The notes below the pieces were generated by a model. That model did not search any database. It saw only the letters and a program-made list of their open reading frames with translations, and was not told where the DNA came from. From IMG/VR virus record IMGVR_UViG_3300030102_005119, positions 1 to 48,631 of that record: DNA of 48,631 bases. One strand, given 5' to 3'. The position numbers and the translations under genes are program-made. Positions 12,001 through 38,419 of this stretch are shown here, piece by piece. The DNA is from a virus. The first letter of the stretch is position 1; each line of letters begins with the position of its first letter.

Positions 12001-15000
12001 CCCGGACCACCAAGGGTGACTGTGACTACGGGTGCGTTAGGCTCTATCTCCTTGACCACCTGTGAGTCCGGGCTTCCCTTGCCTCTCACATTGACTGACC
12101 TGTTGACTGTTGACTCTGTGAGACCCACACAGCGTACCGTGGTGAAACTGTCACCACCTTGATTGGAGTCCAGCACGGCCCTGATTCTGGCCCTGCTCAT
12201 GAGATACATCATGGTGATGTTGTTAGGCTCTTTGAAATCGGTAGACTGCGACCTCAATCCTGAGAGTTGGTTGATTCTTCTCCTATCGGAGGGTTGTATG
12301 AATACTCTCACGCTACCGTCATCTTGGAATTGATTGTCGATGATGTCGAACATCTCGTATATGTGTGTGCCAGAGGAAGTACCTGCCTTGTCGAACTCTC
12401 CGTTGGATGGTGACTGTATGACTTCGCTAGGCTCTCTCCTGAAGTACAGTCCCTTGTCTGTCAAGGAGTCGTTCTTGCTCCTGCTGGGTTCTATGACCAT
12501 CTTGTGGAACACTGAGTCGTGCTTGGTAGTGGGAGTATGGGAAGCGGTGATTATCTGTGGGGTTTTATTGGGGTGTGCGTTAGTGCCTATCCCTATGTAC
12601 AACTCCTCTCCATTGGTGACAGCAGCAGCACGGTTATCCGTGAGGGTGATGTTAGCCCCTATGCCTCCTGATGCTATTGTGCCTACGAATGCTAGGTCGG
12701 AGTTGTAGATGGCATCTCCCTCCGCTATGACGGTGCTTTCGCTGCTAGTGCCGTTGGTGGTGATGCTAGAACCTCCACCAGAGGCTTGGTCACCATCTAC
12801 AGTGATTCCAGTGGGTGTCATTGGTTTGTGGTTGATTGGTGTGAGGCTCTCGTCTAACTCGTCATCCGCCTCGTATCCCTCACTGACATCACCTATGAGG
12901 GAGTGGTTTTCTCTCAACGACCCCTTGAGTATCTCAGAATCTGTGAAGTCGATATATCCACCAGCGGCGAACACCTCTGACCTTATGGTGTTGGTTTCTA
13001 TTGCTGTCTTGATTAGGCTGAAGAGAGTGGTAGTGCCGGTGACTATGGTAGAGCCAGCAGGTACTGTCTTCTCCACCATGAGCAACGGTTGTACGACACC
13101 GCTCATGCTAGCCCCAGTCAGGTCTATCGCATTGTAGTAGACCTTGACGAAGGGAGCGAGGTTGTAGGAAGTCAGAGCGGGTATTCTGAGAAGCGCTACC
13201 CTGCTCTTCTCACTGGGTCTGAGATGAAGCCTGCGTGTCTCTGCGTTCAGATTGTTTAGGTCTTGTGGGACAGGTCCTTTCAGCATGAAGGGCAGGTAGT
13301 CGAAACTAGGACCGCCAATCGCAATCACCTCTTTCTCTGCGTCTACCAAGCCATTGTCGAACACCACTTGCGCCTCTGTCTTGTTGACTATCTCGTCAAT
13401 CAGAACTGTTCCTTGGTCTCTGTAAACGTCAACTCTGCTGTTGATTGAAATCTGGTCGGAGATACCACCCTTGGAGACATCGTACATTACGTCTATGATA
13501 TCAGCAGAGCCGTCTATTTGCTGGTCGATTATCTCCTCCTGCGCTCTTGGCATTAACTTCAGGAAGTCATGACCGTCAACGTGGTTGAGGGCATGCCTTC
13601 CACTGTGACCGACTTGGAAGGATGTGTCTACGTCAGTGGGCCAAGTGACTGCATATGCGTTATCTGAGGTATCTGTGGCCATTTTTGTTGAGTAGACGAA
13701 ACCATGCAGAGCATACGGACTCTCGTCAATGACCATCTGGCCCGTCCTGTCTATCATCTGTGTGGAATGATGAGGTGGTTGGTATGGTCTACCACTGGCG
13801 CTGTCTATCAATAGGTCAGCGCCGACGACTACGAAGTAGTTGTCAACTCCTGCTGTTCTGCTATGCAGAGCCTTGCGAAGTCCGTTGACCGAACTGGAGA
13901 AGTCAAGATGCACGCTGGAGACGAGGCAGTTACCAGTCGATGTGTTGATGTTGTGAAGCCTGACTCTCTCTGGTGGCTTGTTGTTGGGTTTGAATACGTC
14001 CCTGTCTGTAGCACCGGCGTTGATGAGAAGGTTGTATGGTGTGTGAGAGACGAAGTGTGTTGTTGGAGTACCTGTGTTCTGTAGATAGTTGACGACCTTG
14101 TAGTCCCCACCTGTGTACTTGTGAGTACCTGTGCTGTCCTTTGAGAATACGTAGTTACCTGATACCGTCTCCAATCCGGTGAGTTTCTTGGCTAGTTTGA
14201 CTGCATCAGCGGTACTGAGTGATATCTGGGATATGGTGACGGTCTCACCGTCCATGGTAGTGCCGTTGTCTGATATTGAGGAGAAGGTGTAGACCTCCTC
14301 TACAGGTGCTATTGGTTCTTCAAACCTATAAAGCAGCAACGTACTATCGCTGGCTATGGGTGCAGACCTCTCTAACGAGCCTTCCTCGAAGTTAGTAGAG
14401 ATGTGCAGTGACTCCATCACACCTCGAAATTGCCCTCCCTTTCCTCCTACATACACGTGTGCGTTGCCCTTGGCTATCTGTAGGGTTCTGTTCGGCAACT
14501 CCTTCGATGCCATCAACTCGCCATTGATGTAGAGTTCTATAGCACCAGTCCTCAATGCTGCCACTATGTGCATCAGGGGTCGTTGGTCTGTGTTGAGGGT
14601 AGTGGGGTCGTCGTATGAGCCGTTGTACTTGTTGTATGACGAGTGTATACCACCGAACTCAGAAGAGGGATAGACGACTCCCTCGTATCCTCTACCGGAT
14701 ACTTTGGTCGCTGTGGATATGAAATGATGCTCTTGTCCCGCATCAGTGTCGAGGAATACCTCGAAAGTAGCAGGGCCGGGCGTGTCTACCTCGCCTATTG
14801 ACAATTTGAACTGGTCTTCCTTCTCTACTACCACACCGCCGCAATCGGGTATGACCCAAGCCTCTATGCAAATCTGGGTGTTCAGTAGACCGGATAGTGA
14901 GCCTTCACCCTCTATGTGCTGCCTCTCACCCAGTATGTTTGCCTTTGACTTCGTTCCTGATGATGTCTCTTTTCCCAAGCGACTCATAGCGCCTTGCGGA

Positions 15001-15069: not shown

Positions 15070-16290
15070 TCACAACAAGAAGTCCACAGGCACGAATTGC
15101 ATCACAATGTCGTAGATGTTCTCTCCTGCGTTGTATGTGATGTCGAGTTTGTTTACTGTGCCGTTTATTCCTGTTGTGTTGCCAGTGAAAGTCGCACCTG
15201 CTGGATTGGAGTTATTGTCGCTCCTCTTGTCATTGAATGACTTGCCGAATCCTGTGGGCATGATGAAGTTGCGAGCGACGAAGGTATCGCCATCCGCTTG
15301 TATTGTTGAGTTGTATGGTATCTGTATACCCTTGATGTATCCGCTACCTCTACCTGCACCGTCCATTAGAATACCTGCACCTGCTGCCGCTACACCTACT
15401 CCAACTGGTGTGGCAGTACCGAATGATGCTCCTGTGATTGCTACACCAGCACCAATCATACCTGCTCCTAACAGCGCTTTAGTAAAACCCTCTTTCTTGG
15501 AGTTGTTCATGATACCGTAGAGGTCCATCGCCTTGTCTCCTGCCGACCTCTTGGATACTGTGAGACCACCTGCGAACTTCTCGTGAGAGGGAGGTCTGTA
15601 CCCGTTGGGTTTCTGTGAGAATGTGGGAGTGAGGTTGTTGCCATCCTCCCCTGTGACATTCTGTGTTATGGTGACCACGGTGTTGGTTTGGCCAGTGACT
15701 GCGGAATCTGACTTCGATGCGGTGAACTTGGCTGCCAAACTGGATGTGTTGTTTATCAGGTCTGTGAATGCAGTGGCGAAGCCAGCGGCAGTGAGCGAGC
15801 CTGTTGGGTTGATTCCTATGGTGTAATCGGTGTTCGTGGTGTTGGTGAATGTCCCTGATGAGAGTTTCTTTAGTTTGATGACGTATGTGACACCATCGTG
15901 TGAATACAAATGAATAGTGGAGAAACTGAACTCATCCGAACTAACGAAATACGTGTTGTTGAACAACTTGGCTATGTTGGAGTTCGTAGCACCATCACCG
16001 TCTAGGTAACTCTGTATCTGACCACCCAGCACTATGAATGAGAAGTCCATCCTCGCTTTTGATGCTACGTTAGAACCCACCAGATTCCTATCGTCAGTGA
16101 GCACTGCGTTGATTAGAATCATCCCTTTGTTCATGTTGAGGTCAAGTCCTACCCTTATACCGCCGGTGAAGGGGGTGGGCATGCCACCTGTCTTCCTTTG
16201 TGTAGTCATGGTCATGCTAGTGGCGTTTATCTCAGTCAACTGCCCATTGTCATGAACTAGCCTGATAGGAACACCATTTGCCGCCGCCAT
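15070..16290 (-). CDS. Tail-tip / distal tail-like protein, 406 aa
   Basis: The start ATG overlaps the tape-measure stop as TAATG. The N-terminal 110 residues look like a compact beta-rich domain (VPIRLVHDNG, then GLDLNMNKG and FSFIVLGGQIQSY). The middle is Thr/Asn-rich, with a Gly/Ala-rich hydrophobic stretch around residues 268-310 (ALLGAGMIGAGVAITGASF and onward) that could be a membrane-active or buried helix. The C-terminus returns to beta-like sequence ending VMQFVPVDFLL. Lying between the tape measure and the giant putative fibre, it fits a distal tail or baseplate hub protein. I recognise no definite family motif, so the role comes from gene order. Confidence 0.7.
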   Translation of the reverse strand: MAAANGVPIRLVHDNGQLTEINATSMTMTTQRKTGGMPTPFTGGIRVGLDLNMNKGMILINAVLTDDRNLVGSNVASKARMDFSFIVLGGQIQSYLDGDGATNSNIAKLFNNTYFVSSDEFSFSTIHLYSHDGVTYVIKLKKLSSGTFTNTTNTDYTIGINPTGSLTAAGFATAFTDLINNTSSLAAKFTASKSDSAVTGQTNTVVTITQNVTGEDGNNLTPTFSQKPNGYRPPSHEKFAGGLTVSKRSAGDKAMDLYGIMNNSKKEGFTKALLGAGMIGAGVAITGASFGTATPVGVGVAAAGAGILMDGAGRGSGYIKGIQIPYNSTIQADGDTFVARNFIMPTGFGKSFNDKRSDNNSNPAGATFTGNTTGINGTVNKLDITYNAGENIYDIVMQFVPVDFLL

Positions 16291-17162
16291 TATGCATACC
16301 TACTCTTCGTTGTCGTTCCACCCATTGCTCTGGCTACTTCCTCTTGCATCAACTCACCCATCTCTCTGGCTAGTTGTCTCTTGTCAGAGCGGTCTGTCAC
16401 CCCTGCGATGTTGATGTTCATTGTGAAGTTCTGAGTGACACCACCGGATACTGCCGTTCCAATCTGTGTAGCACTGCTTTCTGCTTTCTTCTTCTTCCCA
16501 CCGAACAACCCCTTCGCTTTGTCTATGAGACCGCCTATTGCCCCAGCAATAGCATCCTTGATTTTCTTGATTATATTCCAGACCTGCTTGAAAGGCCACA
16601 TTATGATGTCGCCTACCTTGGCGAACTGGTCGCCTATGAACTCACCAACACCTGCTAGTTTACTCTTTAGATTGCCGATGAAAGTTGATATTTTACCAGC
16701 AACACGGCCTATAGCATCTTTTATTTTTTCAGGTATGCTGAAGATGAAGTCCTTGACCTTTCCTAGTTTCTCTACGATTGTATCCTTTATTCTCCCAAAC
16801 ACATCAGGTATGCCCGCTATTGCGTTTGTGAGTTTCTCTTTTATCGTGCCGAATACCTCAGGTATCTTCTTGAATCCATCAGCGATGAAACCTATTACCT
16901 TCTTTGCGACCTTCATCACTCCGTTGAACACCTTCTTCGCTATGTCTATGAAAGGCTCAAGAACAGGCATTATCTTGTCTTTTATGAAATCCTTAATCTT
17001 GGTGAATATCTTTACGGCGACTTCTCCGAGTTTGTTGAATACGGTAGTGAAGAGAGTACCCATCATGCTTATGCCGGACTGCACCGCAGATATGCCACCT
17101 TGAATCAAGGTGGTGGATGAGTTGATGGCTGCTAAGGATGCCAAGATTGGTGCGAACGCCAT
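16290..17162 (-). CDS. Short tail tape measure protein, 290 aa
   Basis: The start codon overlaps the stop of the frameshifted tail chaperone (TAATG), the classic position for a tape measure gene. The protein is almost wholly amphipathic helix with repeating short blocks (KIKDFIKDKI, KKVIGFIADGFKKI, KVKDFIFSI, KIKDAI) and a Gly/Ala-rich start, as in tape measures. The C-terminal part (KKKKAESSATQIG, then TQNFTMNINIAGVTD and QLAREMGELMQEEVARAMG) resembles the ends of many phage tape measures. It is very short for the family, which commonly runs from 600 to over 1,000 residues. At the usual 0.15 nm per residue it would predict a tail of only about 40-45 nm. I see no peptidase or muramidase domain. 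The family call is fairly safe; the tail length is inference. Confidence 0.82.
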   Translation of the reverse strand: MAFAPILASLAAINSSTTLIQGGISAVQSGISMMGTLFTTVFNKLGEVAVKIFTKIKDFIKDKIMPVLEPFIDIAKKVFNGVMKVAKKVIGFIADGFKKIPEVFGTIKEKLTNAIAGIPDVFGRIKDTIVEKLGKVKDFIFSIPEKIKDAIGRVAGKISTFIGNLKSKLAGVGEFIGDQFAKVGDIIMWPFKQVWNIIKKIKDAIAGAIGGLIDKAKGLFGGKKKKAESSATQIGTAVSGGVTQNFTMNINIAGVTDRSDKRQLAREMGELMQEEVARAMGGTTTKSRYA

Positions 17163-24776: not shown

Positions 24777-25916
24777 TCACTTAAGGTCTCTGATGCTCCC
24801 TTGTCCTCCGAAGAAAGTGGTCCAAAGTTCTCCCATGGTCCTGTACATTCCCTCTTGTCCTAGTCTGTTGATTGCGAATGGGTCACCAGTCTCAATTCCA
24901 CTCTCGTAGTATTGTGTTGGTATCGCCGTGCTGAAGTACATGTAATCAGTGTCTAGGAAGTACATCCTGCTGATTACGTCTGGCTTGACATCCTTGGAAG
25001 GAATGATTGGGACTCCGTTGTAGGTTGCTACTACGAATCCGGCTTCCATTCCGGGTACACCCTTGACACCGTTGTAGGTCGGGGTGACTCTCTTCTCTTC
25101 CATGAACCTCTGCTGGGACTGTAGCAGTTGCTGTAGTCTCATCAGAGTGTCATATCCGGTCAAGATGACTTTCGGGTTTCCACCACGTACCCATATTTTC
25201 TGGAATAGGTCGTCTAGTTGGTCTAGGCTTAGAACCCTGTCAGTTGCACCGGTGTCTGCGTTTACCTCTGCGTATGACCAAGAGTTAGCACTGCCATCTC
25301 TGTTGATGGAGTAGATGTCCTCTCTGCCAGCAGTGTAGTGAGTTCCGGCTGTCATTCCAGTCGAGTCACCAGTGGTCACTCTGTCGATGGACTCGAAGCC
25401 GTTGTCTGCTGTCGTGTCCACGTCTAGTAGTAGCATCTTGTTGGTCATCTCTGCGTGGTGCTTACCCATCTCCTCTTTCAGGACCGAGCGTATGTCGCCC
25501 ATTCCGTCATCCTTGTCAGCAAGGAAGATAGCAGTCTCGGACATGTCGAACGTGTGAACGACCGTCTTTGGCTTTGCAGCCACGTGCTGGAAGGTAGGCT
25601 TCACTGTGTCTGGAAGGGTTGCGTTCTCTGCAACACCACCGTGGACTGCGCCTGAGTTAGGCTTGTCAGTGAGGACTCTCCATCCTGACCTGTCCCATGG
25701 CCTCTTCGGTAGTATGCTGAATGCATTGAACTCTTGGTTCATCTGCGACCATACTTTTCGACCATAGATTGCGTTGTATGTTCCACCAGTGGTGGACAAC
25801 ATTGGTGCGTCTGCTTTCAATAGTTCACTGCCGGAGTAGGAGTAACCCATTGAGTTACCTGCTCCGTAGTAGTATCTTTCCATATCTGTTACTGTTCTTA
25901 TGTAGTTTCTTGCCAT
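24777..25916 (-). CDS. Major capsid protein (HK97-fold type), 379 aa
   Basis: The ATG at 25916 follows AGGAGTGAT at ideal spacing, just after the protease-scaffold stop. The order protease-scaffold then capsid is the hallmark of HK97-like heads. The sequence fits: a helical N-terminal arm, a strand-rich region (GWRVLTDKPNSGAVHGG, TVKPTFQHVAAKPKTVVHTF), a long helix with DIRSVLKEEMGKHHAEMTNK (spine-helix-like), then PKVILTGYDTLMRLQQLLQ and strands AGFVVATYNGVPIIPSKDV. No large N-terminal delta domain is present, consistent with a separate scaffold domain carried on the protease. Shell formation is the expected role. Confidence 0.85.
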   Translation of the reverse strand: MARNYIRTVTDMERYYYGAGNSMGYSYSGSELLKADAPMLSTTGGTYNAIYGRKVWSQMNQEFNAFSILPKRPWDRSGWRVLTDKPNSGAVHGGVAENATLPDTVKPTFQHVAAKPKTVVHTFDMSETAIFLADKDDGMGDIRSVLKEEMGKHHAEMTNKMLLLDVDTTADNGFESIDRVTTGDSTGMTAGTHYTAGREDIYSINRDGSANSWSYAEVNADTGATDRVLSLDQLDDLFQKIWVRGGNPKVILTGYDTLMRLQQLLQSQQRFMEEKRVTPTYNGVKGVPGMEAGFVVATYNGVPIIPSKDVKPDVISRMYFLDTDYMYFSTAIPTQYYESGIETGDPFAINRLGQEGMYRTMGELWTTFFGGQGSIRDLK

Positions 25917-25918
25917 TC

Positions 25919-27331
25919 TTAATCACTCCTGAAGGTGCTGTTTGCGAGGTTATGTACCTCTTCCCAACTCATTGTTGCGAGTTCCTCAGTCGAAGGGATT
26001 TCGACGGTTGGAAGGGATGCTTCTGATTTTGCGATGGTCGAGCCGGACTCTACTGAGCCGATGCTGTCAATGCGCTCTGTTAGAGCGGCTAGGGACTTCT
26101 CGATAGCGGCTAGTGGGCTGCGAGCATCGAATGCTGCTGCTTCTGCCTTTGCGATTTCCTCTTGCCTCTCTGCTGCGAACCTGCTGGAGAAGTGGCTCTC
26201 TAGGTTGCCCTTGAACTCCTGCTCCAGTGCTGCTGCCTTGTAGACCTCGTATGCTGCCTCGATGTCCGAGTCAGATACCCTGTCTGCGGTTAGGAAGTCA
26301 GACTTCTCTATTGAGGATTTCTTGCCCTTTCCACCAGCGCCAAAGTTGGCCTTGGGTACTTCTGGCTTTCCGTCCACGGTCTCCCTCTTTGGGGCTTGAC
26401 CGCCGAACCTCACAGCACCGTCACCGATTTCTTCGGGTGTCGAACCTGCGTTGGCTTTGGACACGTCATCGAAGTGAGCACGTGCGGCTATTGTGTCCAC
26501 ACCTGCACTCTTCAGAGTGTCTTCCATCCAGTTGAGGTACTCGGAGGAGATAACGTCTGAGTACTCTGATTTTCCGACACCATCGTCTTTGTCGTCATCA
26601 TCGTCTTTCATGGCTTCTTTCTTGTCACCATACATTTTCTCTTCGTCGTCTTTCTCGTCGCCGTCGTCGTCGTTCTTCTTGCCTTGCATATGCTCTTTCA
26701 AGCCCGGTGGCATTTCCCCTTTCTCCATGGAGTCGAGACGGCCTTCCAGACGTGACAGAACATCTGTCATCTGCGTCATTACGTCATTTTCTGCTTCTGT
26801 CATTTTTTTCACCTTTTTCTTATCTTCTTTTAATATCCTGAATGTTGCTTCTGGATTGATTCCCTTCTCACAGATTGTGATTTCGTGTAGTTCAAGTTTG
26901 CTGATTTCTTGGTAGTCGCCGTGCACTGCGTCTGATTTTCTGACTCGCTTGAATGCCTGTCCTCCGATACTAAAGCCCCTTAGTGCTCCTTTTCGGATTT
27001 CGGCAGCGACTTCCTTTGCTTTTTCGATGTCGTCACGTAATTCTACTACTACGAACATGCCAACATCGTCAACTTCGCTTTTCCATAACCTCCCTTCACT
27101 ATCTGTATAATTAGGAATAACTTCTCCCACTTGTATGTTAGAATGCGCTAATTGCACGTTTCTGTATCTGTGGTCCTCCATATATTTCTTGAATGCGTCC
27201 TTCAATGCTTCCTTCGTAATTTTGTCTCCTTGCTTGTCAACTACTTCTACGCTAGCATATCCTGCGACAACGAGGTCTCCACCCTTGATGAGTGTAATTC
27301 CAGACTGAGGTTGTCGCAATGGGGATAGCAC
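25919..27331 (-). CDS. Prohead maturation protease fused to scaffold, 470 aa
   Basis: Residues about 15-170 match the HK97-type prohead protease fold: DLVVAGYASVEVVDKQGD, the His of QLAHS (H63), the nucleophile-like Ser of RGFSIGG (S121), and KLELHEITICEKGINPEA, the usual closing strand. After residue 175 comes a long acidic, coiled-coil-rich region (MTEAENDVMTQMTDVLSRLE, then Lys/Asp-rich blocks and MEDTLKSAGVD), a typical scaffold. The last twenty-odd residues (STEELATMSWEEVHNLANST) are closely repeated at the end of the 116-residue protein at 33222-33572. The start is a GTG at 27331 with no clear ribosome site but a TATA-like element about 33 nt upstream. Expected role: guide capsid assembly, then cleave scaffold and capsid arm. 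Confidence 0.87.
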   Translation of the reverse strand: MLSPLRQPQSGITLIKGGDLVVAGYASVEVVDKQGDKITKEALKDAFKKYMEDHRYRNVQLAHSNIQVGEVIPNYTDSEGRLWKSEVDDVGMFVVVELRDDIEKAKEVAAEIRKGALRGFSIGGQAFKRVRKSDAVHGDYQEISKLELHEITICEKGINPEATFRILKEDKKKVKKMTEAENDVMTQMTDVLSRLEGRLDSMEKGEMPPGLKEHMQGKKNDDDGDEKDDEEKMYGDKKEAMKDDDDDKDDGVGKSEYSDVISSEYLNWMEDTLKSAGVDTIAARAHFDDVSKANAGSTPEEIGDGAVRFGGQAPKRETVDGKPEVPKANFGAGGKGKKSSIEKSDFLTADRVSDSDIEAAYEVYKAAALEQEFKGNLESHFSSRFAAERQEEIAKAEAAAFDARSPLAAIEKSLAALTERIDSIGSVESGSTIAKSEASLPTVEIPSTEELATMSWEEVHNLANSTFRSD

Positions 27332-27367: not shown

Positions 27368-27398
27368 AAGCGGCAACAAACTAAACTGTTGTTGCTTC
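27367..27398. repeat. Imperfect inverted repeat at the junction of two genes
   Basis: Plus strand: gaagcggcaacaa, nine bases, then ttgttgcttc. The arms pair over gaag/cttc and gcaacaa/ttgttgc with a small bulge. It spans the stop of the 1826-residue gene (27381) and touches the TATA-like element. It may be a transcript hairpin that slows read-through or an operator for the capsid promoter. There is no clear T-tract. Confidence 0.45.
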
Positions 27399-30300
27399 TT
27401 TATCTGGGCCTGAATCTTCGTTTTTGATGCCCTTACCCCTCTTTTGTTGTCGCTTCATATGTGGATACGGCTTTTCATCATCTTCCGTGGGTCTTGCCCT
27501 CATGTCATAGTCGGGCAGGGTCTGCTCTCCGTCGAGCGTGGTAGGTCCTCTGGGACTCTCAATCTGAGCGCCTAGTTCTATACCGAGGCCTTTGCTACCG
27601 CTCATGGGGAAGTGTCCTTTCTCTAGGACATCCAGAACTCTGACCATGACACCGAGTGCTTTCTCCATCTGTGGCTTGAGTAGTTGATTCTTCTCTGCTA
27701 GTGTCTTGGCCTTGTCCTGAACTTTCTTCTCAGGTATGGGTCTCTTCTCCACTTTGCCCTTGAGCATCATGCTAGCGACCTGAGACCAGTATGGTTTGAG
27801 GCTCTCAGACAGCCTGATTGTGTAGTCTGACTCACCGAACTCCGAGAGAAGTGTGCGTGGTGAGTGAACCCAGTATCCCAAGTCGGACTTCTCTAGTGTG
27901 TAGAAAACGTCATTCTCAAGATACGTCTTGACAATCAAAGTGTTGTCATCTATGTCAACATCGTGTGGGAAGTGTAGGTTTGGTATGGACTTGGCTAGGA
28001 TGTTGAGTGTCTCCATGCTGACGCTGGACTCACCCTCTCCCTCTCCGACTATCTTGACTGGGTTCAGGTCGTATACTTCTCTGCCGTTGATTTTCTTTCT
28101 CTTGATGCCGGTGACCTCGACTTCCACAATCTCCCCTTCGTCAAACGATTTGGGGCTGGATACCGTACCTACGTCGAGATACACCTCTCCCTCGTAGTCA
28201 ACTGTGGCATTCTCTATGCCCTCATCGTCAATCAGAGGTCCTGCTCCTAGTCTGTATGTGATGCTCTTCTTGCCCCTCTTGTCGAGAATCCTGAGGTTGA
28301 CGTTCTTGTTCGGTCTAAGTAGAACCCACTTCGGGTGTCTCTTCTCTCCCTTCATGTACGTGCTCTTACCGTCTCTGATGAGTATGCAGTCGTGGTCCTC
28401 AAGCAGTGACTTAACCGTGTCCTCCAGACCCTCGTCGTCAGTCATGCGTGTGTCATGAGGTCCGGGCACAGTGACGTTATCGTATCCATCGAACTGCCCC
28501 CTGAGTATCTTCAGTCTCTCCTGTATGGTCATGTCTGTGATGTCAGAGTCATCGTAGTAGGTGATGTCGATGATGTGCAACTCGTCATCTGAGAGTATGC
28601 CGTCCAAGGTGCAGTCCTTCTTCCCTAGGTTCTTGACACCATCCTTGACCCAATCGGGTATGCTCATCCTTGAGTTGTGCTCGTTGTATGCAGATACCTT
28701 GTCGTTCAACTTCATGACCACGACCCTCTCGCCCTCGTACCACTTGGATACCACCCAAGAGCCGGTGAAGCCCCTGAGTTGATTCATGTCCTTGAAGTCG
28801 AATATCCTGTGCATGGGTCGTATTGGTGGTACGAAGTTCGGTGTGTCGTCCCCTTTCAGCATCAGTGAGTCCGGGTTGAGCAAGAACGCTGCGTAATCCG
28901 ATGGCTCGCTAGTCGTTATCGAGTAGGGTTGTTCCGCTGGTACAGTGCCGTCTGGGTAGACCATGTACTGGTTAGCACCCGTCATAGAGACGTTTTGGTC
29001 ATCGAGGCTCTGGACTGCTGCTGCCACTTCTCCCCCGAAATGCTGTTGGATGACTGACATGGGTACTGCGTGCATCGGTTGGGGAGCGGCTGTCGGACCT
29101 GACGTGAGTTCACCGAATGTGGCATCGAAGGACTCGGCTGGTTTCCTGAGTCTGTGATTGCTGTGGTCCATGAGTCCTGAGTATCCATAGAGGTCCATGA
29201 TAGGCGAGCCTTGTACGCCCATTGGGTGTAGTTCCCTTTGTCCGAAACCTATGGTCTCGCTCTCAATCATGTCAGGTGACGATGACAGGTCGAAGTTGGG
29301 GTCATGCACGAAGAGGTCCTTGCTCGCATGTTGAATGTAATTGGCTCGTGTGTCTATCCCACGGTTGCTCTTGTTTGCCTTGATTTTTGCGTTAGTGAGG
29401 GCAGAGCGCCTTTCCGTCCCTCTGCCTATCTCAGGCGCTGCGAAGTAAGTCAGACCTAGATTGTCCTGAACCTCCTTGGGAAGACTGTTGACCTGACCCC
29501 TGAGTCCCCTCATCTGGGACTCTATGCGCTTTGTGTACCCAAGTATGTCGTCTTTGGAGTACCCGTACTTCTCCTCGAACTCATCGTCGGAGACAGTGTG
29601 GTCTCTAGTAGATGCGAATATCTTCCCAGCATGGTCGTGCATGTGGTCTATGTCATCATAGCCCAAGAACATCCGTTGGTCTTTTCCTGCGTATAACTCA
29701 GGTGGGTTTGTCGTTATGGAGTTGAGGGACATCAACACCCTGTGGTCATCCTCGTTGTTCGGGTCGAGTGACGCTTTTATCGAATCCAACACGTTTCCAT
29801 AGTGTGCTGAGTGTGTTCCGTCCTCACCCATGCCTAGGTGCTTAACTAGGTCGTCCAGAGTTGTTTTCGAGTCTATTCTGAAACCGTGCTCTCGCATGTG
29901 CTCTGGTAGTCTGTGGAGTCCAGTCCTCTGCAATGGTGTCATCCTCTTATCTATGCCATGCTCCATCACTGTGAGGTTGTTTGTCCAAGTAGTGCCGTCT
30001 GGTAGTTCTATCTCCGCTCCCCTAGGTAAGTGCATCAAGACCATGTTGGCATCCCTGAACAGACCGTCAATCTCCGCATCCAAGTTGGGGTTGTCGGGAC
30101 TGAACGTACCCTCCGGCTTGAGTTGCTTGAGGACCATTGCCATCTGTTCAATTGCTCGATGATGGGAATGTATCCTGTCCATGTGCTGCCTCATCAGCGT
30201 GCCACCCATCCTATCATTCAGACCGAAGTGGTCTAGGAACTCTTCAACTGCCTCATCGTCACCAACCCTAGCACCGAATGAGGGGAGATTCAACTTGAGG

Positions 30301-32861
30301 GTGGATGGTGACAACCCAAACATACCGGCAGGTCTGCCACTACCGCCTCTTCCCATCATGGTCGCTATGGAGTGTGACCATATGTGTTGGTACTTGGAAA
30401 CTTGGTCTGGGTCTATCTTCTCCTCGTAACTATCCTGCACGTTGTCCCCTGTCGATAACTCCTCACCCGCTCCTATGGTTGCTGCTAGGTTCGTGCCACC
30501 TATGTCGGTCTCTTTCTTGACTGACCTCTTGTACCCCTTGCCATGTGGTATCCTTGAGTTGGTAGCACCGGATGAGTAGTTGGGCTTGTTGATTCTGTAG
30601 TTCTTGCCGTACTTCTCCACTAATTCCTCATCGGACAGTCTGGATATGACATTCACCAGACCGGGCGCTAGATGTGATAGGTTTGCGAGAATCTGATTCT
30701 TCGGGGTCGTGCCTTTTATTCCATGGACCTTGGTCTGACCGTACTTGGATAGTATGTTGGCTGGGGTGTTGAAGACACCACGCTTGTGGTTGAGGAAGGG
30801 AGCAATCAATCCTATGTTGAACTCATTGGGTGTTATTCGTTCCCCGTCTACCATGCCTAGGTGACTCTCACCATCTGCGTTTGAGAAGTGCCTGAATATC
30901 ATCTCCATCAAGGTATGTGGATTTCTACCAAGACCACCGGCAGCGAAGGCCGGAGCAAAGAAAGCACCGAGACCGTAGTGACCTGTGCTATCGGGAATCC
31001 TCAGGTCCTGCATGACCTCGGCCATCTCCGGGTCAATCTCGGACTCATCGAAGTACAGACCACCATGCAGGAGCATGTCGTTGCGTATGTCCTTGGCATC
31101 CTTACCTAAATCCCCTTGGGACTTGGCTTTGGCGAGCACCGACATGAGTGTGTCCCTGTCGAGCAGAGGACCTGAGAAGTTGGGATAGTGATGGTCATCA
31201 TCCTCGGTCATCTCAGTCATGTCCTCGTTGTATCCCAATGCGTAGAGAATCTCCTTCTTGGATAGCCTATCTCCGTGTCCTGTCCCTATTATGTCGTTGA
31301 TGGACTTGTCATAGTGAGAGGCTATGGCATCCTCCTCAGATGCACCCTCGTTCTTCTTCTGGTATCTCTTGATTGACCTCTCACTGTGCTTCGACAACTT
31401 GGGTAGGTGGTTGAAGTCCTTGTGAGCCTTGCCTGTCTCCTTGTGGAAGTGACCATCCTTGTCAAGACCGTTCTCGTCATTGGCTTTGACGAACTCCAGA
31501 CCCAGAGCCTCTCTGAGGTTGTCGTGTATGGTGTCCCTGTGCTCGAAGTCATCGTCATGTATTATGTCGTGGAGCGCCGAGAAGAACTCGTCCTTCTGGT
31601 TGTCAGAGAGTTGCTCTTCGTTGCTCTCCCTGCTAGGTATGATATTCTCGTTCGTAAAGCCATGCTGCCTGCCACCCCAGTTGGACATCGAGTTGAGTAT
31701 GTGTTGTGTTGACCTCTTTATCCTCCCAGAGGATACGGTTGTTCCATCTGGTAGTTTGATGTCTTGGTTTTCCACCTTGTCCAGTCCATCCTGCATCTTG
31801 TTCATTATCGCCGTCCTCTCTCTGGGGGAGAACCACTGTAGTTGGTGTATGAAACCACCAAGACCCAGATTGTATCCGTGGTCGATGGTCTCCGCTGGTG
31901 GCATCTTGCCTTCCTTGTCTGCGAGTGCGTAGTCGAAGGGCTGCTCCTTCACCTCGGTATCCACGTGCTTGTGATTCCAACTCCTAGCCCTGTCGTCTGC
32001 GTGTAGTTTCCTGAGAGCCAGTTCCTCCTGCGAATGGAAGTGTCCTTCTGGTATCTCGTCTGACAGTCCCTCTGCTCTGGCATCTGCGATAGCGCTTGTC
32101 CTCCAAGAGCCATCATGGTCTACCTCGCCGGTCTCAGGGTGAATGCTCTTCCACTCCTCGTCACCACTGAGCCAACGTTGGTAGTCCCTCTCGTACACGT
32201 CATGCATGGTCTTGAGCGATACGTCCTTCAGACCACCGAGAGGGCCAAGACCGTGGAAGTTCCTGACTGTGTTGCCCTCTAGGTCCAACTTCTCCATACC
32301 CTTGTGGTGTGGGCTGCCCTTCTTCCTGAGCATCCTGTCTTGTGCATGCTCCACCGCTGCTGATATCCTTCCGTGCGTCTTGTGGTTGGTGAGCGTAGGT
32401 AGCATCTGCCTGACCATCAACTCGTCTATGATTGAGCGCCCTGATGGTAGCATTCTCTTCGATGGGTCGTAGAAACTACTGAAGGGGTTGGACTTCGAGT
32501 CACCGTAGGGTGCTAGACCAATATCTGCGACCTCAAGGTCGTGATGGTGAGAAGCCCCTCTCCTCTTGACCCTGCCTCTCCAAGGTTGGTTTGTGGAGAG
32601 ATGCTGCTGGTTCTGCTCGGCTTGTATGGCTAGGAACTGTTCCTTCGGTATGTACGAGTTGCCACTGTAGGACATCTTCCTGACGAAGGAGTCGCATATG
32701 TTCTCCTTCCAAGTGATGTCGTTGGTGAAGCCGTCCTGCTCCATCACCGCTTTGGCGATGACATACTCCTCTATGCTCTCATCTACGTCTAGTCCGTCTA
32801 GTATACTGAGCAGGAGTTGTTCTCTTGCCTTTACGAACGTGGATACTGAGTCTTCATACAC
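27381..32861 (-). CDS. Giant head-module protein with DNA-ligase-like domain, 1826 aa
   Basis: The start is a GTG at 32861 after AGGTGG. Residues 1-1340 are His-, Asp- and Gly-rich with many short helices and no domain I recognise (HHHDLEVADIGLAPYGD near the start). Residues about 1360-1535 look like the adenylation domain of ATP-dependent DNA ligases: KWYEGERVVV (motif I region, 1373 on), TLDGIL near 1418, DITYYDDSDITDMTIQERLK, and DCILIRDG near 1492 followed by KWVLLRPNK. An OB-fold-like part follows to about 1610 (YEGEVYLDVGTVSS, then IVEVEVTGIKRK). Several catalytic positions differ from active ligases: the motif I Lys is displaced by one residue, Glu of motif III is Ile1422, motif IV reads Asp/Arg, and a motif V Lys is Leu. 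The C-terminus is basic. Lying among head genes, it may be packaged in the virion; that is inference. Confidence 0.85.
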   Translation of the reverse strand: MYEDSVSTFVKAREQLLLSILDGLDVDESIEEYVIAKAVMEQDGFTNDITWKENICDSFVRKMSYSGNSYIPKEQFLAIQAEQNQQHLSTNQPWRGRVKRRGASHHHDLEVADIGLAPYGDSKSNPFSSFYDPSKRMLPSGRSIIDELMVRQMLPTLTNHKTHGRISAAVEHAQDRMLRKKGSPHHKGMEKLDLEGNTVRNFHGLGPLGGLKDVSLKTMHDVYERDYQRWLSGDEEWKSIHPETGEVDHDGSWRTSAIADARAEGLSDEIPEGHFHSQEELALRKLHADDRARSWNHKHVDTEVKEQPFDYALADKEGKMPPAETIDHGYNLGLGGFIHQLQWFSPRERTAIMNKMQDGLDKVENQDIKLPDGTTVSSGRIKRSTQHILNSMSNWGGRQHGFTNENIIPSRESNEEQLSDNQKDEFFSALHDIIHDDDFEHRDTIHDNLREALGLEFVKANDENGLDKDGHFHKETGKAHKDFNHLPKLSKHSERSIKRYQKKNEGASEEDAIASHYDKSINDIIGTGHGDRLSKKEILYALGYNEDMTEMTEDDDHHYPNFSGPLLDRDTLMSVLAKAKSQGDLGKDAKDIRNDMLLHGGLYFDESEIDPEMAEVMQDLRIPDSTGHYGLGAFFAPAFAAGGLGRNPHTLMEMIFRHFSNADGESHLGMVDGERITPNEFNIGLIAPFLNHKRGVFNTPANILSKYGQTKVHGIKGTTPKNQILANLSHLAPGLVNVISRLSDEELVEKYGKNYRINKPNYSSGATNSRIPHGKGYKRSVKKETDIGGTNLAATIGAGEELSTGDNVQDSYEEKIDPDQVSKYQHIWSHSIATMMGRGGSGRPAGMFGLSPSTLKLNLPSFGARVGDDEAVEEFLDHFGLNDRMGGTLMRQHMDRIHSHHRAIEQMAMVLKQLKPEGTFSPDNPNLDAEIDGLFRDANMVLMHLPRGAEIELPDGTTWTNNLTVMEHGIDKRMTPLQRTGLHRLPEHMREHGFRIDSKTTLDDLVKHLGMGEDGTHSAHYGNVLDSIKASLDPNNEDDHRVLMSLNSITTNPPELYAGKDQRMFLGYDDIDHMHDHAGKIFASTRDHTVSDDEFEEKYGYSKDDILGYTKRIESQMRGLRGQVNSLPKEVQDNLGLTYFAAPEIGRGTERRSALTNAKIKANKSNRGIDTRANYIQHASKDLFVHDPNFDLSSSPDMIESETIGFGQRELHPMGVQGSPIMDLYGYSGLMDHSNHRLRKPAESFDATFGELTSGPTAAPQPMHAVPMSVIQQHFGGEVAAAVQSLDDQNVSMTGANQYMVYPDGTVPAEQPYSITTSEPSDYAAFLLNPDSLMLKGDDTPNFVPPIRPMHRIFDFKDMNQLRGFTGSWVVSKWYEGERVVVMKLNDKVSAYNEHNSRMSIPDWVKDGVKNLGKKDCTLDGILSDDELHIIDITYYDDSDITDMTIQERLKILRGQFDGYDNVTVPGPHDTRMTDDEGLEDTVKSLLEDHDCILIRDGKSTYMKGEKRHPKWVLLRPNKNVNLRILDKRGKKSITYRLGAGPLIDDEGIENATVDYEGEVYLDVGTVSSPKSFDEGEIVEVEVTGIKRKKINGREVYDLNPVKIVGEGEGESSVSMETLNILAKSIPNLHFPHDVDIDDNTLIVKTYLENDVFYTLEKSDLGYWVHSPRTLLSEFGESDYTIRLSESLKPYWSQVASMMLKGKVEKRPIPEKKVQDKAKTLAEKNQLLKPQMEKALGVMVRVLDVLEKGHFPMSGSKGLGIELGAQIESPRGPTTLDGEQTLPDYDMRARPTEDDEKPYPHMKRQQKRGKGIKNEDSGPDKEATTV

Positions 32862-32871
32862 ACGTTACCAC

Positions 32872-33222
32872 CTAGTCTCTGTTCGGCTGTTTGTTGTCTG
32901 TGGCTACATCACGGTCTTGGTCACCGGTCTGATGAGCGTTCATCCTCTTTGCGAGTTCCTCGACGTTGAATGAACTGGACATAGCACCTTTGTTGGCTAC
33001 GTCTTCAACATCCAGTAGATGTCCGTTGGTTGAGTACCCTGCGCTCTTGGTCTGTCCACCGGTCTCTGATACGAAGTGCATGCCCTCAGGCTTCGTTGAG
33101 AAGGTCTGCTCGTAGTGGGGTTGAGCGGATTTCTCAAGTTTTGCCGCTCTCTCTGCCAAATACTGTGCTTTCTTCAATAGTGCTTCTGCCTCACTGGAAA
33201 CTTCCTCATATCTCGGTCTCAT
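32872..33222 (-). CDS. Small helical head-module protein, about 116 aa
   Basis: Two ATG codons lie at 33225 and 33222; the second has better spacing from GGAGGT and overlaps the previous stop as TGATG. The N-terminus is a clear coiled coil (EEVSSEAEALLKKAQYLAER), followed by a Gly/Ser/Thr-rich middle and a polar tail with FNVEELAKRMNAHQ. It is probably a minor head or scaffold-related protein by context; no family is recognised. Confidence 0.62.
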   Translation of the reverse strand: MRPRYEEVSSEAEALLKKAQYLAERAAKLEKSAQPHYEQTFSTKPEGMHFVSETGGQTKSAGYSTNGHLLDVEDVANKGAMSSSFNVEELAKRMNAHQTGDQDRDVATDNKQPNRD

Positions 33223-33572
33223 CATAATACCTCCACGTTCTTAGTGTTGTCTGCTAATTCGTGAATGTCATCCCAAGACATCTGGTGGATGTCCTCGTTG
33301 CTCATCTCTCCCATGTCTATTCTGTTTCCCTTCAGTAGAGTAGCCTCGCCCATCTCTAGGTCTGCTCTGAAGTTATCAGGCTCTACGTCTTCTGACAACG
33401 GGGTGTTGACTGACACGAAGCCTGCTCTCTTGAGTAGGTTTCCGGGTTGTTGAATCATCTTCTTGAGTTCTAGGTTCTCTTGCTTCAAACTGTCGAGAGA
33501 ACGGTCCATGGACTCCATCTTGTTGATTAGAGCATTCATCAACCGCTCTGTTCCACTCTCTTCTGTTGTCAC
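33222..33572 (-). CDS. Coiled-coil protein with scaffold-like C-terminal motif, 116 aa
   Basis: GTG start at 33572 after a GAGGATT-like ribosome site. Residues 10-42 form a coiled coil (LMNALINKMESMDRSLDSLK and beyond). Residues 91-110 (SNEDIHQMSWDDIHELADNT) align without gaps to residues 447-466 of the protease-scaffold: nine identities and six conservative changes, including MSW and a fixed His. Coiled coil plus a terminal binding motif is the layout of capsid scaffolds, so this may be a second scaffold or capsid-binding partner. The shared motif is visible; the function is inferred. Confidence 0.7.
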   Translation of the reverse strand: MTTEESGTERLMNALINKMESMDRSLDSLKQENLELKKMIQQPGNLLKRAGFVSVNTPLSEDVEPDNFRADLEMGEATLLKGNRIDMGEMSNEDIHQMSWDDIHELADNTKNVEVL

Positions 33573-33581
33573 GTTGAATCC

Positions 33582-33938
33582 TCACTCTGGTCTGTATGCT
33601 CTTCCGAAAGTACCAGTGTGGGGTCTCATCCTGCTGTTGCTTCGTGCAGAAATGATTGTGCCCGGCAACTGACTGTCTCTTTGATTAACATCGAAATTAG
33701 TGCCTCTCTCATTGAACTTCATGGGTGCTACGCCGTTTACGTACTCGGAGAGTGGGTTATCCGCCTTGGTTAGTTTGACAGTCAAGTCCTCGTGCAGGTA
33801 TCCTCCGAACTTCAGCATCTCCTCTAGATGTTGTTTAGCATCATCTGCGTTTCCATTCTCAAAGGCCTTGGTGAAGGCTTCTGCATGCACGTTTAACTTC
33901 CTAGCCATCGGGTCTAACTTCAATAGGTCCATACTCAC
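33582..33938 (-). CDS. Small head-module protein, 118 aa
   Basis: A GTG at 33938 has GGAGGG five bases upstream; an ATG two codons later is less well placed. The N-terminal half is helical (ARKLNVHAEAFTKAFENG, DDAKQHLEEMLKFGGYL) and the C-terminal half is extended and basic (ISARSNSRMRPHTGTFGRAY). It follows the portal gene closely. I recognise no family; a minor capsid or portal-associated protein is possible by position. Confidence 0.62.
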   Translation of the reverse strand: MSMDLLKLDPMARKLNVHAEAFTKAFENGNADDAKQHLEEMLKFGGYLHEDLTVKLTKADNPLSEYVNGVAPMKFNERGTNFDVNQRDSQLPGTIISARSNSRMRPHTGTFGRAYRPE

Positions 33939-33973: not shown

Positions 33974-35722
33974 TTATGCCCCACGAGGACGTTTTGCGTC
34001 CGAAATGCCCCTTTGTGCTCTTTGAACAGGTGACTGTTGAGGTCCTCTCTGTTGGACGTTGGAGAATGGTGAGCCTGCTCCTGCTGTGGCTCTCTGCTCA
34101 GGTCGTGCTGGAGGTGCGTTTCTGATGCCCATTCCCTCACCGCCGGGATTGGCTATTCCCGGTGGCATGCCCGGTACTCTCTGCATGACTCCGGGTGGCA
34201 TTCCGCCCGGTGGCATTCCGCCCGGTGGCATTCCGCCCGGTGGCATTCCGGGTGGCATTCCGGGTGGCATCATAGGCATACCACCGCCGGGTGGCATACC
34301 CTGTCCCTCCATCGGGTCTATCTTCTTGTATACGAAGCGGATGTCCCTCTCTCCCTCTTCAAGTAGTTCGGGTTTGTAGCCGAGCATCATCATTCGTTGT
34401 GCTAGGTTCGCTTCCATCTCGTCTCTCCTGAGTCTGGTTATCTCGTCTTCTTCCTCGTTCGGGTAGAGTGTCAGTTTCCAGTCGTTGACTCCCATCTCCT
34501 TGAGCATTCGTGGGAACATCACGTCTGTGTACACCTTCTGCCCGTACTCTACAGCACGGTTGGTAACGAGAATCTGCATGCCCTCGTTATTGAGACCACC
34601 ACTCTTGCCGTTGTCAATCATGAACACCGCCGACACACCGTAGAATGCTGCTATCCTGTTTCTCATTTCGTCACGGACAGCAATGTACTGCATCTCCTCA
34701 AGAGTGTCCATGAACTTAATCCAATTGACACCGCCTCTTCCACTGGAACTCTCGATACCGACCTTGGGGATGTAGTGTGGGTCTCTCTCCATCTTCTCAT
34801 CAACTGACTTCCAGAAGGACTTCATCGACTCTAGATTGTCTGTGGTTACCGATATGATGCCCTTGGGCGCTCTCCTCTTCTGGTATGATGTGTACATGTA
34901 GTTGTCCATGGCAGTGAGTGTCATGGCTTGTCTCCACATGGTGTTGACTGGGCTTCTCCCATAGAGTTTCGACGGGTTGTACTTGCTGACGTGGATTACC
35001 TCTCCCTTGAGGTAGTACTGGCTCTTGCCGCTACCGGCCATGTTGATGTAGTGAACGTCTTCCATCTGTCCACCGCAGACTTGGCAGTTGCCCTCTTGAC
35101 CGGGATAGGACACCTCTGTCCTGTGCAACGGGCAGACCTTGTACCTGCCACCCCTGACTCCCCTCTTGTCCGATACTATACGCATGAATATGGGGTCGCC
35201 ACGAATGAGTTCCTTGACTCTGAAGAACTGTATCTCACCGTCTTCTGGGTCTACGTAGTACTCCTTAACTATGATTAGGAAAGCGTCGTCAACTATGTTG
35301 AGGTCCTTCTCTATCTCATACAACACGTGCATGAAGTCCTGCTCCATTGAGTTCTGCTCCTTGAGAAGCCATCTTGGGTAGACAATCTCGTCTGCACTAG
35401 GTGGTCTAACTGGTGAGTCGCAGACATTGCAGATGTTCACATCGTGGTGATACTCCTCACCACAGGTGTCGCACTTGAATCTGAACTTCTTCTCCCAGAA
35501 GTACCCTCTCCTGAATATCTCCTGCTGTAGTTTGGATAGTACGGTTCTGAGAATCAGGTTCTCATGTGATACTGCGTATAACGCTGGTATGGTTATACCT
35601 TGAGCGAGAACTGGTTCTTGTATGCCAGTCGTGTATAACGGCATCTGTGGTTGAGGGGTAGTTCTCCTCTTGAACGGGTTCAGGGAATCTAGGAATCTCC
35701 TGACAGGACTCTCATCAGCCAT
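33974..35722 (-). CDS. Portal protein with two zinc ribbons, 582 aa
   Basis: The ATG at 35722 overlaps the previous gene and follows GGAGGGTGAT. The core matches phage portals: an N-terminal helix, KEYYVDPEDGEIQFFRV, EVIHVSKYNPSKLYGRSPV, a helical stem (LTAMDNYMYTSYQKR), and RDEMRNRIAAFYGVSAVFM followed by a Gly-rich turn. Two zinc-binding loops are inserted: C84-x2-C87 with C98-x2-C101, and C197-x2-H200 with C213-x2-C216. After residue 475 is a Met-Pro-Gly-rich segment of MPPGG-like repeats, then a basic tail. The portal forms the dodecameric vertex where DNA enters. Zinc ribbons may replace parts of the wing. Order after the terminase is as expected. Confidence 0.85.
   Translation of the reverse strand: MADESPVRRFLDSLNPFKRRTTPQPQMPLYTTGIQEPVLAQGITIPALYAVSHENLILRTVLSKLQQEIFRRGYFWEKKFRFKCDTCGEEYHHDVNICNVCDSPVRPPSADEIVYPRWLLKEQNSMEQDFMHVLYEIEKDLNIVDDAFLIIVKEYYVDPEDGEIQFFRVKELIRGDPIFMRIVSDKRGVRGGRYKVCPLHRTEVSYPGQEGNCQVCGGQMEDVHYINMAGSGKSQYYLKGEVIHVSKYNPSKLYGRSPVNTMWRQAMTLTAMDNYMYTSYQKRRAPKGIISVTTDNLESMKSFWKSVDEKMERDPHYIPKVGIESSSGRGGVNWIKFMDTLEEMQYIAVRDEMRNRIAAFYGVSAVFMIDNGKSGGLNNEGMQILVTNRAVEYGQKVYTDVMFPRMLKEMGVNDWKLTLYPNEEEDEITRLRRDEMEANLAQRMMMLGYKPELLEEGERDIRFVYKKIDPMEGQGMPPGGGMPMMPPGMPPGMPPGGMPPGGMPPGGMPPGVMQRVPGMPPGIANPGGEGMGIRNAPPARPEQRATAGAGSPFSNVQQRGPQQSPVQRAQRGISDAKRPRGA
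34190..34298 (-). repeat. 15-nt tandem repeat in the portal gene
   Basis: On the plus strand the unit ggtggcattccgccc repeats three times exactly and then continues in shortened form (ggtggcattccg). It encodes the MPPGG repeats of the portal C-terminus. Near-perfect DNA identity suggests recent expansion by slippage. Confidence 0.85.
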
Positions 35723-36940: not shown

Positions 36941-38419
36941 TCAGGGTATTAGCCACCCTCCGCCGGGCTGTTCCTTCCCGCCGAACATGTCATCGAAGCC
37001 CGGCATATAATCATCTAGGAGGACAACCGTTCCCTTGAACTCCTTTGATGCCCAGTTAGCGAGAGCCAGACTCATCGCCAAGTCGTCATGCACACCGACG
37101 CTCTCTAGCCTGCCGTTCTTCTGCATGCCGAAACGATTGAGTTGCATCTCCAACTCATGTGTGTACTTGCGACTTCTCTCGTCACCGTATGGAAGTTTGA
37201 TGTGTCCTTGCTCGAATGCCAGCAATAGTGACATGAACAACGACTCCTTCTTGGCTCTGGTCGTCATGAACACACGAATCGGCATGTCTGCTGCCATCTC
37301 CCTCATCTCCTGCTCCAGCATCCTCTGGAAGTTGTTGCCCTCAAGTTCTATCAGTTCAGGATTGAACTTGCTGTTGAGCATGACCATCATCCTCTTTTGC
37401 GCCATCGAGGACATACCACGCTCGTGCACCACGTGCACTATCTCCTTAAACTCCTCATCCGGCTTCTGACGCATGACAGTCATGGCGGTGAAGTCAGCGT
37501 TCTTGTCAGAGGATATGGCTGGGTCGTGCCCTATGAAGTGCTGTCCGAACACCCCATCAGCCTCCCCTTCTTCGTTGTAGTTGGTCTCGGCCCTGTCAAT
37601 CAGCACGAGATTCGGGTCTCTAGCCACCTCAAGAATCTCCATGGGGAACATGCTGGCCACATCGTGGATAGGCTCGCACAGGTACTCACGGCTGAATTGT
37701 ATGGCTGGCATGGAAAGTCGCCTCTGCTCCAGTGCCTCTATGTTCCAACGCTCAGGCCAGAGTGCCACTCCCTCGTTGTTTATCGCTGGGAACGTCTCCA
37801 CACGGAAGGTCTCCTTCTGCTCCAACTCCGCATACAGGTCGTTGTAGGAGAACGGCGTTCCGACCATCATGAGTTTGCTGCTGTGGTGCAGAACAGGTAG
37901 AAGGACACCGTAGAACCAGTCTGCTGTCCTCTGTAGTTCTGTGCCGCTAGTCCCCCACAGGATGTCGTCGCACACAACCACGTCAGGGTGGAAACCACGA
38001 GTAGCACCACCGACCGACTTGGCCATGATACGAGAGCCGTTGGAGAACTCGAAGTACGATTTCGCCCAAGGCCTACCCTCTGGAATGAGGTCTCTCAGAC
38101 AGTCCGTCCTGTCGATGTTGCTTTTTATGAAACGCATGTGCTCAAGCGTCTGCTCAAGGGAGTGTGAGAAAATCATGATGTGCTTGTTGGGAGTGAATGC
38201 GGCTAACCACAGTGCGTATGTCATGAAGAACACGGACTTACCGTGGTCACGAGATGCCTTCACGCAGTAGTACTGCGACTCCTCAAGCCCGTTCTTCCAA
38301 GACTCGTGGTGAGTGTTGAACAGGAAGCCGAGTATGTCCACGAAGAAGTACTCGAATGACTTCCTGCACATCTCCTTGTCCATCTGGATGATGAAGTCAT
38401 CCATCGACTCGTCGCTCAT
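36941..38419 (-). CDS. terL: Terminase large subunit, 492 aa
   Basis: The packaging motor of the virus. ATPase domain: Walker A SRDHGKS (56-62), Walker B VVVCDD (147-152) and coupling motif VGTPF (186-190). Nuclease domain: Asp299 in GHDPA, Glu360 in ELEGNN and the D445/D446 pair in VHDDLAMSLALANW, together the usual metal-binding acidic triad of RNase H-like terminase nucleases. Length is typical. The ATG overlaps the previous stop as ATGA. All catalytic residues appear intact, so it should be active. It would cut concatemers and drive DNA through the portal encoded two genes downstream. Confidence 0.95.
   Translation of the reverse strand: MSDESMDDFIIQMDKEMCRKSFEYFFVDILGFLFNTHHESWKNGLEESQYYCVKASRDHGKSVFFMTYALWLAAFTPNKHIMIFSHSLEQTLEHMRFIKSNIDRTDCLRDLIPEGRPWAKSYFEFSNGSRIMAKSVGGATRGFHPDVVVCDDILWGTSGTELQRTADWFYGVLLPVLHHSSKLMMVGTPFSYNDLYAELEQKETFRVETFPAINNEGVALWPERWNIEALEQRRLSMPAIQFSREYLCEPIHDVASMFPMEILEVARDPNLVLIDRAETNYNEEGEADGVFGQHFIGHDPAISSDKNADFTAMTVMRQKPDEEFKEIVHVVHERGMSSMAQKRMMVMLNSKFNPELIELEGNNFQRMLEQEMREMAADMPIRVFMTTRAKKESLFMSLLLAFEQGHIKLPYGDERSRKYTHELEMQLNRFGMQKNGRLESVGVHDDLAMSLALANWASKEFKGTVVLLDDYMPGFDDMFGGKEQPGGGWLIP

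Follow-up and report, generated by a model that had tools for sequence, protein, structure and literature searches.

Magroviruses are described as carrying an ATP-dependent DNA ligase among the enzymes of their replisome (PMC10160649, PMC10768690, PMC12999244), and another report places the 'ligase' of one published read next to the prohead protease (PMC7318539). What does a ligase-like domain do inside a giant protein encoded among head genes, and is it a ligase at all? Here, we addressed this question in the window, i.e. the whole 48,631-nt stretch of an IMG/VR contig (IMGVR_UViG_3300030102_005119), which belongs to a magrovirus-type tailed virus by marker kinship. The hosts of magroviruses are marine Poseidoniales archaea. 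The major capsid protein (MCP) of the window is 35% identical, and its portal protein ~30% identical, to those of Haloarcula viruses of Druskaviridae, with which marine magroviruses group in published trees (PMC8651126). The name magrovirus is used here because of this MCP and portal kinship, the marine MCP clade (PMC8651126) and the adjacency of ligase and protease (PMC7318539).

The head module of Magrovirales, with homologous terminase large subunit (TerL), portal, protease and MCP genes in conserved order, is found in the window (Table 1). Comparison of 13 magrovirus loci revealed a constant order of TerL, HNH, portal, three small ORFs, giant ORF, protease and MCP, and the orthologues of the giant ORF, mostly ~1800-2040 aa long, occupy the same genomic slot. 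Scans of IMG/VR yielded 213 stretches encoding the ligase-like domain, plus a further set and divergent members that were reached via the MCP. The domain was present in the giant ORF of this slot in 57/57 magrovirus loci (loci extending 3 kb or more upstream of the MCP) and in 0/10 Druskaviridae-like loci. Its placement among capsid genes, noticed in a preliminary description of the window, is thus confirmed and conserved. Searches with tblastn, using both the domain and the whole protein, identified zero relatives in 50,697 phage records, and a tblastn search of GTDB genome contigs identified zero as well.

Several other features of the window were observed. The portal ORF contains a tandem 15-nt repeat at 34190-34270 (minus strand), encoding Gly/Met/Pro-rich GMPPG repeats near the portal C-terminus. 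An ORF at 3-15065 (minus strand) has at least 5021 codons and runs off the contig end; it shows a weak Laminin_G_3-type match (1e-4) and probably encodes a giant receptor-binding or tail-fibre protein. A 290-aa ORF at 16290-17162 (minus strand) has partial matches to tape-measure and endolysin families (PHROGs, best 1.2e-12).

Table 1. Features of the head module in the window, of the ligase-like domain and of compared loci
Feature	Position	Strand	Basis or remark
Major capsid protein, Druskaviridae/magrovirus type	24777..25916	-	phrog_24667 4.5e-58; 35% identity to HVTV-1 MCP
Prohead protease (S78), gene next to giant ORF	25919..27331	-	Pfam PF04586 4.4e-10; PHROG head maturation protease 6.6e-17
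Giant head-module ORF, 1826 aa	27381..32861	-	ORF list; pseudo-ligase near C-terminus
Conserved C-terminal tail, r1613-1826	27384..28025	-	Signature G-x-[KR]-G-x-G-I-[DE]...SPxGPT...PD[YFW]D, family alignments
Pseudo-DNA-ligase core, NTase + OB, r1340-1612	28026..28844	-	AlphaFold2, Foldseek, profile search
Family signature S1500-T-Y-M-[KR]-G-E-x-R-H-P-K-W-x-x-x-R1516, including degenerate motif V	28314..28364	-	48-member alignment
Degenerate motif IV, H1490-D-C-I-L-I-R1496	28374..28394	-	Asp/Arg replace Glu/Lys
Degenerate motif III, T1418-L-D-G-I-L1423	28593..28610	-	Glu replaced by Ile
Degenerate motif I, S1372-K-W-Y-E-G-E-R1379	28725..28748	-	Trp at nucleophile position 1374; K and [D/E]-G separated by one additional residue
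N-terminal ~1325 residues, fast-evolving	28887..32861	-	Conservation 0.13-0.64 per 30-residue block
Three small conserved ORFs between portal and giant ORF	32872-33938		Synteny in 13 magrovirus loci
Portal protein	33974..35722	-	PF04860 7.2e-11
Terminase large subunit	36941..38419	-	phrog_38 5e-63
Separate ligase of G022, 379 aa	L268 1222-2361		Intact K-F-D-G-x-R, D-G-E, E-G, K-V-K motifs
Halovirus giant slot protein, HVTV-1 gp115	L012 10623-14564		
Halovirus giant slot protein, HCTV-1 gp109	L015 10929-14561		

Residue r of the giant ORF corresponds to nucleotide 32861-3(r-1). The ligase-like segment had been placed at 28030-28785 (about residues 1360-1610), whereas the actual domain (residues 1340-1612) begins upstream of that edge with a ligase-like 'PIRPM' segment. 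The N-terminal 1325 residues gave zero Pfam or PHROG matches in the 18 family members searched. A domain-only AlphaFold2 model, built from an alignment of 48 sequences, reached a mean pLDDT of 88.3 and a pTM of 0.72. Archaeal ATP-dependent DNA ligases were on top when this model was compared with the PDB by Foldseek (4eq5, 1.0e-12; 2cfm, 2.4e-12; TMq 0.60-0.61), and the best 50 listed matches were all DNA ligases or ligase-containing complexes. The overall rmsd to PDB ligases is large (8-15 A), which we read as a different arrangement of the nucleotidyltransferase (NTase) and OB domains in the model. The domain-only model supersedes a first one of residues 1330-1826, which gave the same kind of matches with less confidence, a low-confidence tail and poor superposition (TMq ~0.3).

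Profile searches pointed in the same direction. A profile of 48 diverse members matched the archaeal DNA ligase 4eq5 at an E-value of 1.1e-7, followed by other archaeal ligases, with WD-40 and snurportin chains being weaker (snurportin-1 cap-binding domain, E 0.05). Of 18 family members, 16 matched the Pfam family DNA_ligase_A_M (PF01068; 5e-6 at best), and the window copy is sub-threshold at 17.6 bits (curated cut-off 26.2). Alignment of the family by hhalign with a single true viral ligase, that of HGTV-1, gave nothing meaningful, so the link to ligases rests on the PDB and Pfam profiles and the fold. The predicted fold is NTase + OB with the OB domain after motif V, as the OB-like end in the preliminary description had implied, and the profiles match ligases; thus, neither an unrelated fold nor a lack of remote similarity was found. 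Based on the model and profiles, residues 1340-1612 are confirmed as a genuine NTase + OB core of the ATP-dependent DNA-ligase type. In the viral structure library, by far the nearest neighbour was an 827-aa viral protein (BFVD A0A516LT18, E 1.4e-23).

The domain and the archaeal ligases of Thermococcus/Pyrococcus (4eq5, 2cfm) have in common the NTase + OB fold and order, the 'PxRPM' lead-in, the [D/E]-G-x-R of motif I, the motif IIIa Asp and the motif V Trp. However, the nucleophile Lys, the motif III Glu, the motif V Lys and ~30 residues between motifs III and IIIa are absent from the domain, and no ligase N-terminal DNA-binding domain is recognisable; instead, the core is fused to a ~1325-aa head-module protein.

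In DNA ligases, the motif I Lys is adenylated, the motif III acid contacts the ribose of AMP and the motif V Lys the alpha-phosphate, with metal ligands also among these residues (PMC6698739). Residues at these positions were counted in 48 members sharing less than 92% identity. The nucleophile position 1374 is occupied by Trp in 39 members, Tyr in 6 and Met in 3, and by Lys in 0/48, while the motif I Arg (R1379) is kept in 47/48. At position 1422, which corresponds to the motif III Glu, Ile was found in 41, Val in 6 and Met in 1; the motif IIIa Asp is kept in 46/48. The motif IV Lys is replaced by Arg in 46/48 (Lys in 2/48), Asp or Glu stands at 1491 in 29/48, and Gly is absent among the residues listed for the motif IV Gly position in the 48 members. 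The first motif V Lys (1514) is Leu, Val, Met or Ile in all 48 and the second is Arg in 41/48 and Lys in 2/48, in accordance with the window's KWVLLR (Lys to Leu and Lys to Arg), and R1508, H1509, K1511 and W1512 are invariant (48/48). The altered residues originally read from the window were all verified in the DNA, where the motifs are S-K-W-Y-E-G-E-R with Trp at the aligned nucleophile position, LDGIL, HDCILIR and KWVLLR. Judging from the alignment, the loss of the catalytic Lys, Glu and Lys is family-wide. As the residues needed for lysyl-adenylate formation are missing, the domain should not seal nicks, and we infer that ligase activity has been lost.

K1373, directly before position 1374, was considered as a one-residue-shifted nucleophile, which would make the protein an active, unusual ligase or nucleotidyltransferase. 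This Lys is present in 36/48 members, and both the [D/E]-G and the Arg of motif I are retained. However, K1373 is poorly conserved, being replaced by Thr, His, Ala, Val, Ser, Asp or Leu in 12/48, and 0/48 members retain the acid of motif III or the first Lys of motif V; this candidate was rejected, and we regard an active enzyme as very improbable. In the clade of L009, L010, L011 and L016, Thr replaces the Lys before the Trp (S-T-W-Y-E-G), and among the closer relatives no copies are more clearly dead.

Loss of the catalytic residues could also mean that a ligase once used in replication was joined by accident to a structural gene and is now decaying there as a relic. However, conservation within the giant protein is highest in the ligase-like region. 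Excluding pairs with saturated synonymous sites, dN/dS in close orthologue pairs (Nei-Gojobori) was ~0.03 in the NTase + OB region versus 0.10-0.16 in the N-terminal 1325 residues, showing that, at the level of coding sequence, the domain is under strong purifying selection. Moreover, it is kept in every magrovirus locus tested, and broken ORFs are rare exceptions (L067, L263). A relic, which should not combine the lowest dN/dS with the highest conservation of the whole protein, is therefore hardly credible. In L263, the giant ORF at 2811-8593 lies in two frames (an N-terminal piece at 2811-3782 and the rest at 3755-8593), due to either a frameshift or an assembly error. The suggestion of a pseudo-enzyme in the preliminary description is strongly supported by the family-wide loss of Lys, Glu and Lys under such selection.

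In the Druskaviridae (HVTV-1, HCTV-1), too, this slot encodes a giant protein, with homologous genes for portal, protease and MCP next to it. Besides a MuF-like protein, their portal-protease region encodes this giant protein, which carries a Zeta-toxin domain, in HVTV-1 also an ADP-ribosyltransferase domain, and no ligase domain. It is possible that HVTV-1 gp115 and HCTV-1 gp109 are virion cargo. Because the region looks cargo-like in these related haloviruses, the magrovirus giant protein might likewise be packaged and injected with the genome into the new host, where it would, for instance, shield incoming DNA ends or nicks or compete with host repair. On the other hand, hhalign detected no homology between the magrovirus giant ORF and the giant slot proteins of HVTV-1 and HCTV-1, and injection is a conjecture, which makes such a role rather improbable.

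We slightly favour the view that the domain is a non-catalytic DNA-holding module of a head or packaging protein. An ancestral magrovirus would have fused an archaeal-type ATP-dependent DNA ligase core to the C-terminal part of the giant head-module protein, and the dead domain would then have been retained as a binding module under the purifying selection observed. The giant protein would most likely act in the capsid interior or at the vertex that bears the portal, during assembly, packaging or ejection. The surfaces with which the NTase and OB domains of ligases clamp a duplex, together with the invariant basic STYM[KR]GExRHPKW loop, could hold viral DNA, conceivably at its termini, at nicks made by the terminase or along the packaged duplex. 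Presence and action in the head, binding instead of catalysis, DNA as the ligand and the more specific suggestion of the preliminary description, binding to DNA ends or nicks in the virion, are all inferred.

The main uncertainty is whether the partner is DNA or protein. A dead ligase fold could also serve as a structural adaptor, i.e. an assembly or scaffolding domain that binds head proteins (portal, protease, scaffold) and not DNA. The fixed slot beside the portal accessories and the protease, a gene neighbourhood that suits a minor head protein, and the net acidic charge of the window domain are consistent with this possibility; given that charge, any contact with DNA would have to be made by a local patch. 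However, positions at the ligase active site and DNA side, including the motif I Arg and the motif V region, are conserved, seemingly beyond the need of a generic scaffold, and we consider the adaptor role an unlikely alternative.

For a DNA-holding module, precedents of catalysis-independent DNA binding exist: T4 ligase whose Lys is changed to Leu still binds nicked DNA, and domains of T7 ligase bind duplex DNA (PMC6144786). Both the ligase fold and the existence of non-catalytic derivatives of nucleotidyltransferase folds are already known. The cap-binding domain of snurportin-1 has a nucleotidyltransferase-type fold and binds without catalysis, although its ligand is the RNA cap and it functions in eukaryotic nuclear import, with no head role. 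T4 RNA ligase 1 (gp63) likewise has a ligase fold and a part in virion assembly, namely in tail-fibre attachment; in contrast to the magrovirus domain, it keeps its ligase activity, is encoded by a separate gene and is used in the tail, not the head. A limited literature search found no catalytically dead, ligase-derived module that a group of viruses carries as a constant part of a protein of the capsid module.

What, then, is the ligase attributed to the magrovirus replisome? In 21 long magrovirus records, the head ORF was the sole DNA_ligase_A_M match, and none of PF04679 (C-terminal ligase), PF01653 (NAD-ligase) and PF09414 (RNA-ligase) was detected in the 21. DNA polymerase B (PolB) is encoded in 12/21, so these records include the replication module at least in part. 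Mere contig incompleteness was therefore rejected as the explanation for the absent ligase, since all three other ligase families are missing in 21/21 while PolB is found in 12, with the reservation that the records are not proven complete. The head copy occurs in 37 records (window included), of which, although they may be incomplete, only G022 has a separate canonical ligase (1/37); this 102-kb magrovirus keeps the head pseudo-ligase beside its intact-motif ligase, which speaks for the binding-module view. The head copy passes the curated PF01068 cut-off in 18/36 relative records, so automatic annotation would name it a ligase. With half of the copies above the cut-off, the published magrovirus 'ATP-dependent DNA ligase' is probably the head pseudo-ligase, at least in these lineages; it was published as a replisome enzyme, whereas the copy described here lacks the catalytic residues and lies in a head-module gene.

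If so, most magroviruses would encode no working ligase. This would correct the repeated claim that almost all of them possess a DNA ligase within a replisome that is largely self-sufficient, and would illustrate how a function comes to be claimed for a pseudo-enzyme when genes are annotated by profile match. Tentatively, one may go further, to a scenario that we consider possible rather than probable: in the magrovirus order, a DNA ligase may have become a head component that is essential and non-catalytic, an undescribed capsid-associated clamp that would grip DNA ends or nicks in packaging or ejection, with most members then lacking a ligase of their own despite the description of a near-complete replisome. 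The DNA-holding reading, if right, makes a biochemical prediction, namely that the domain binds and does not ligate, and would add a conserved head component to one of the most abundant groups of archaeal viruses in the ocean.
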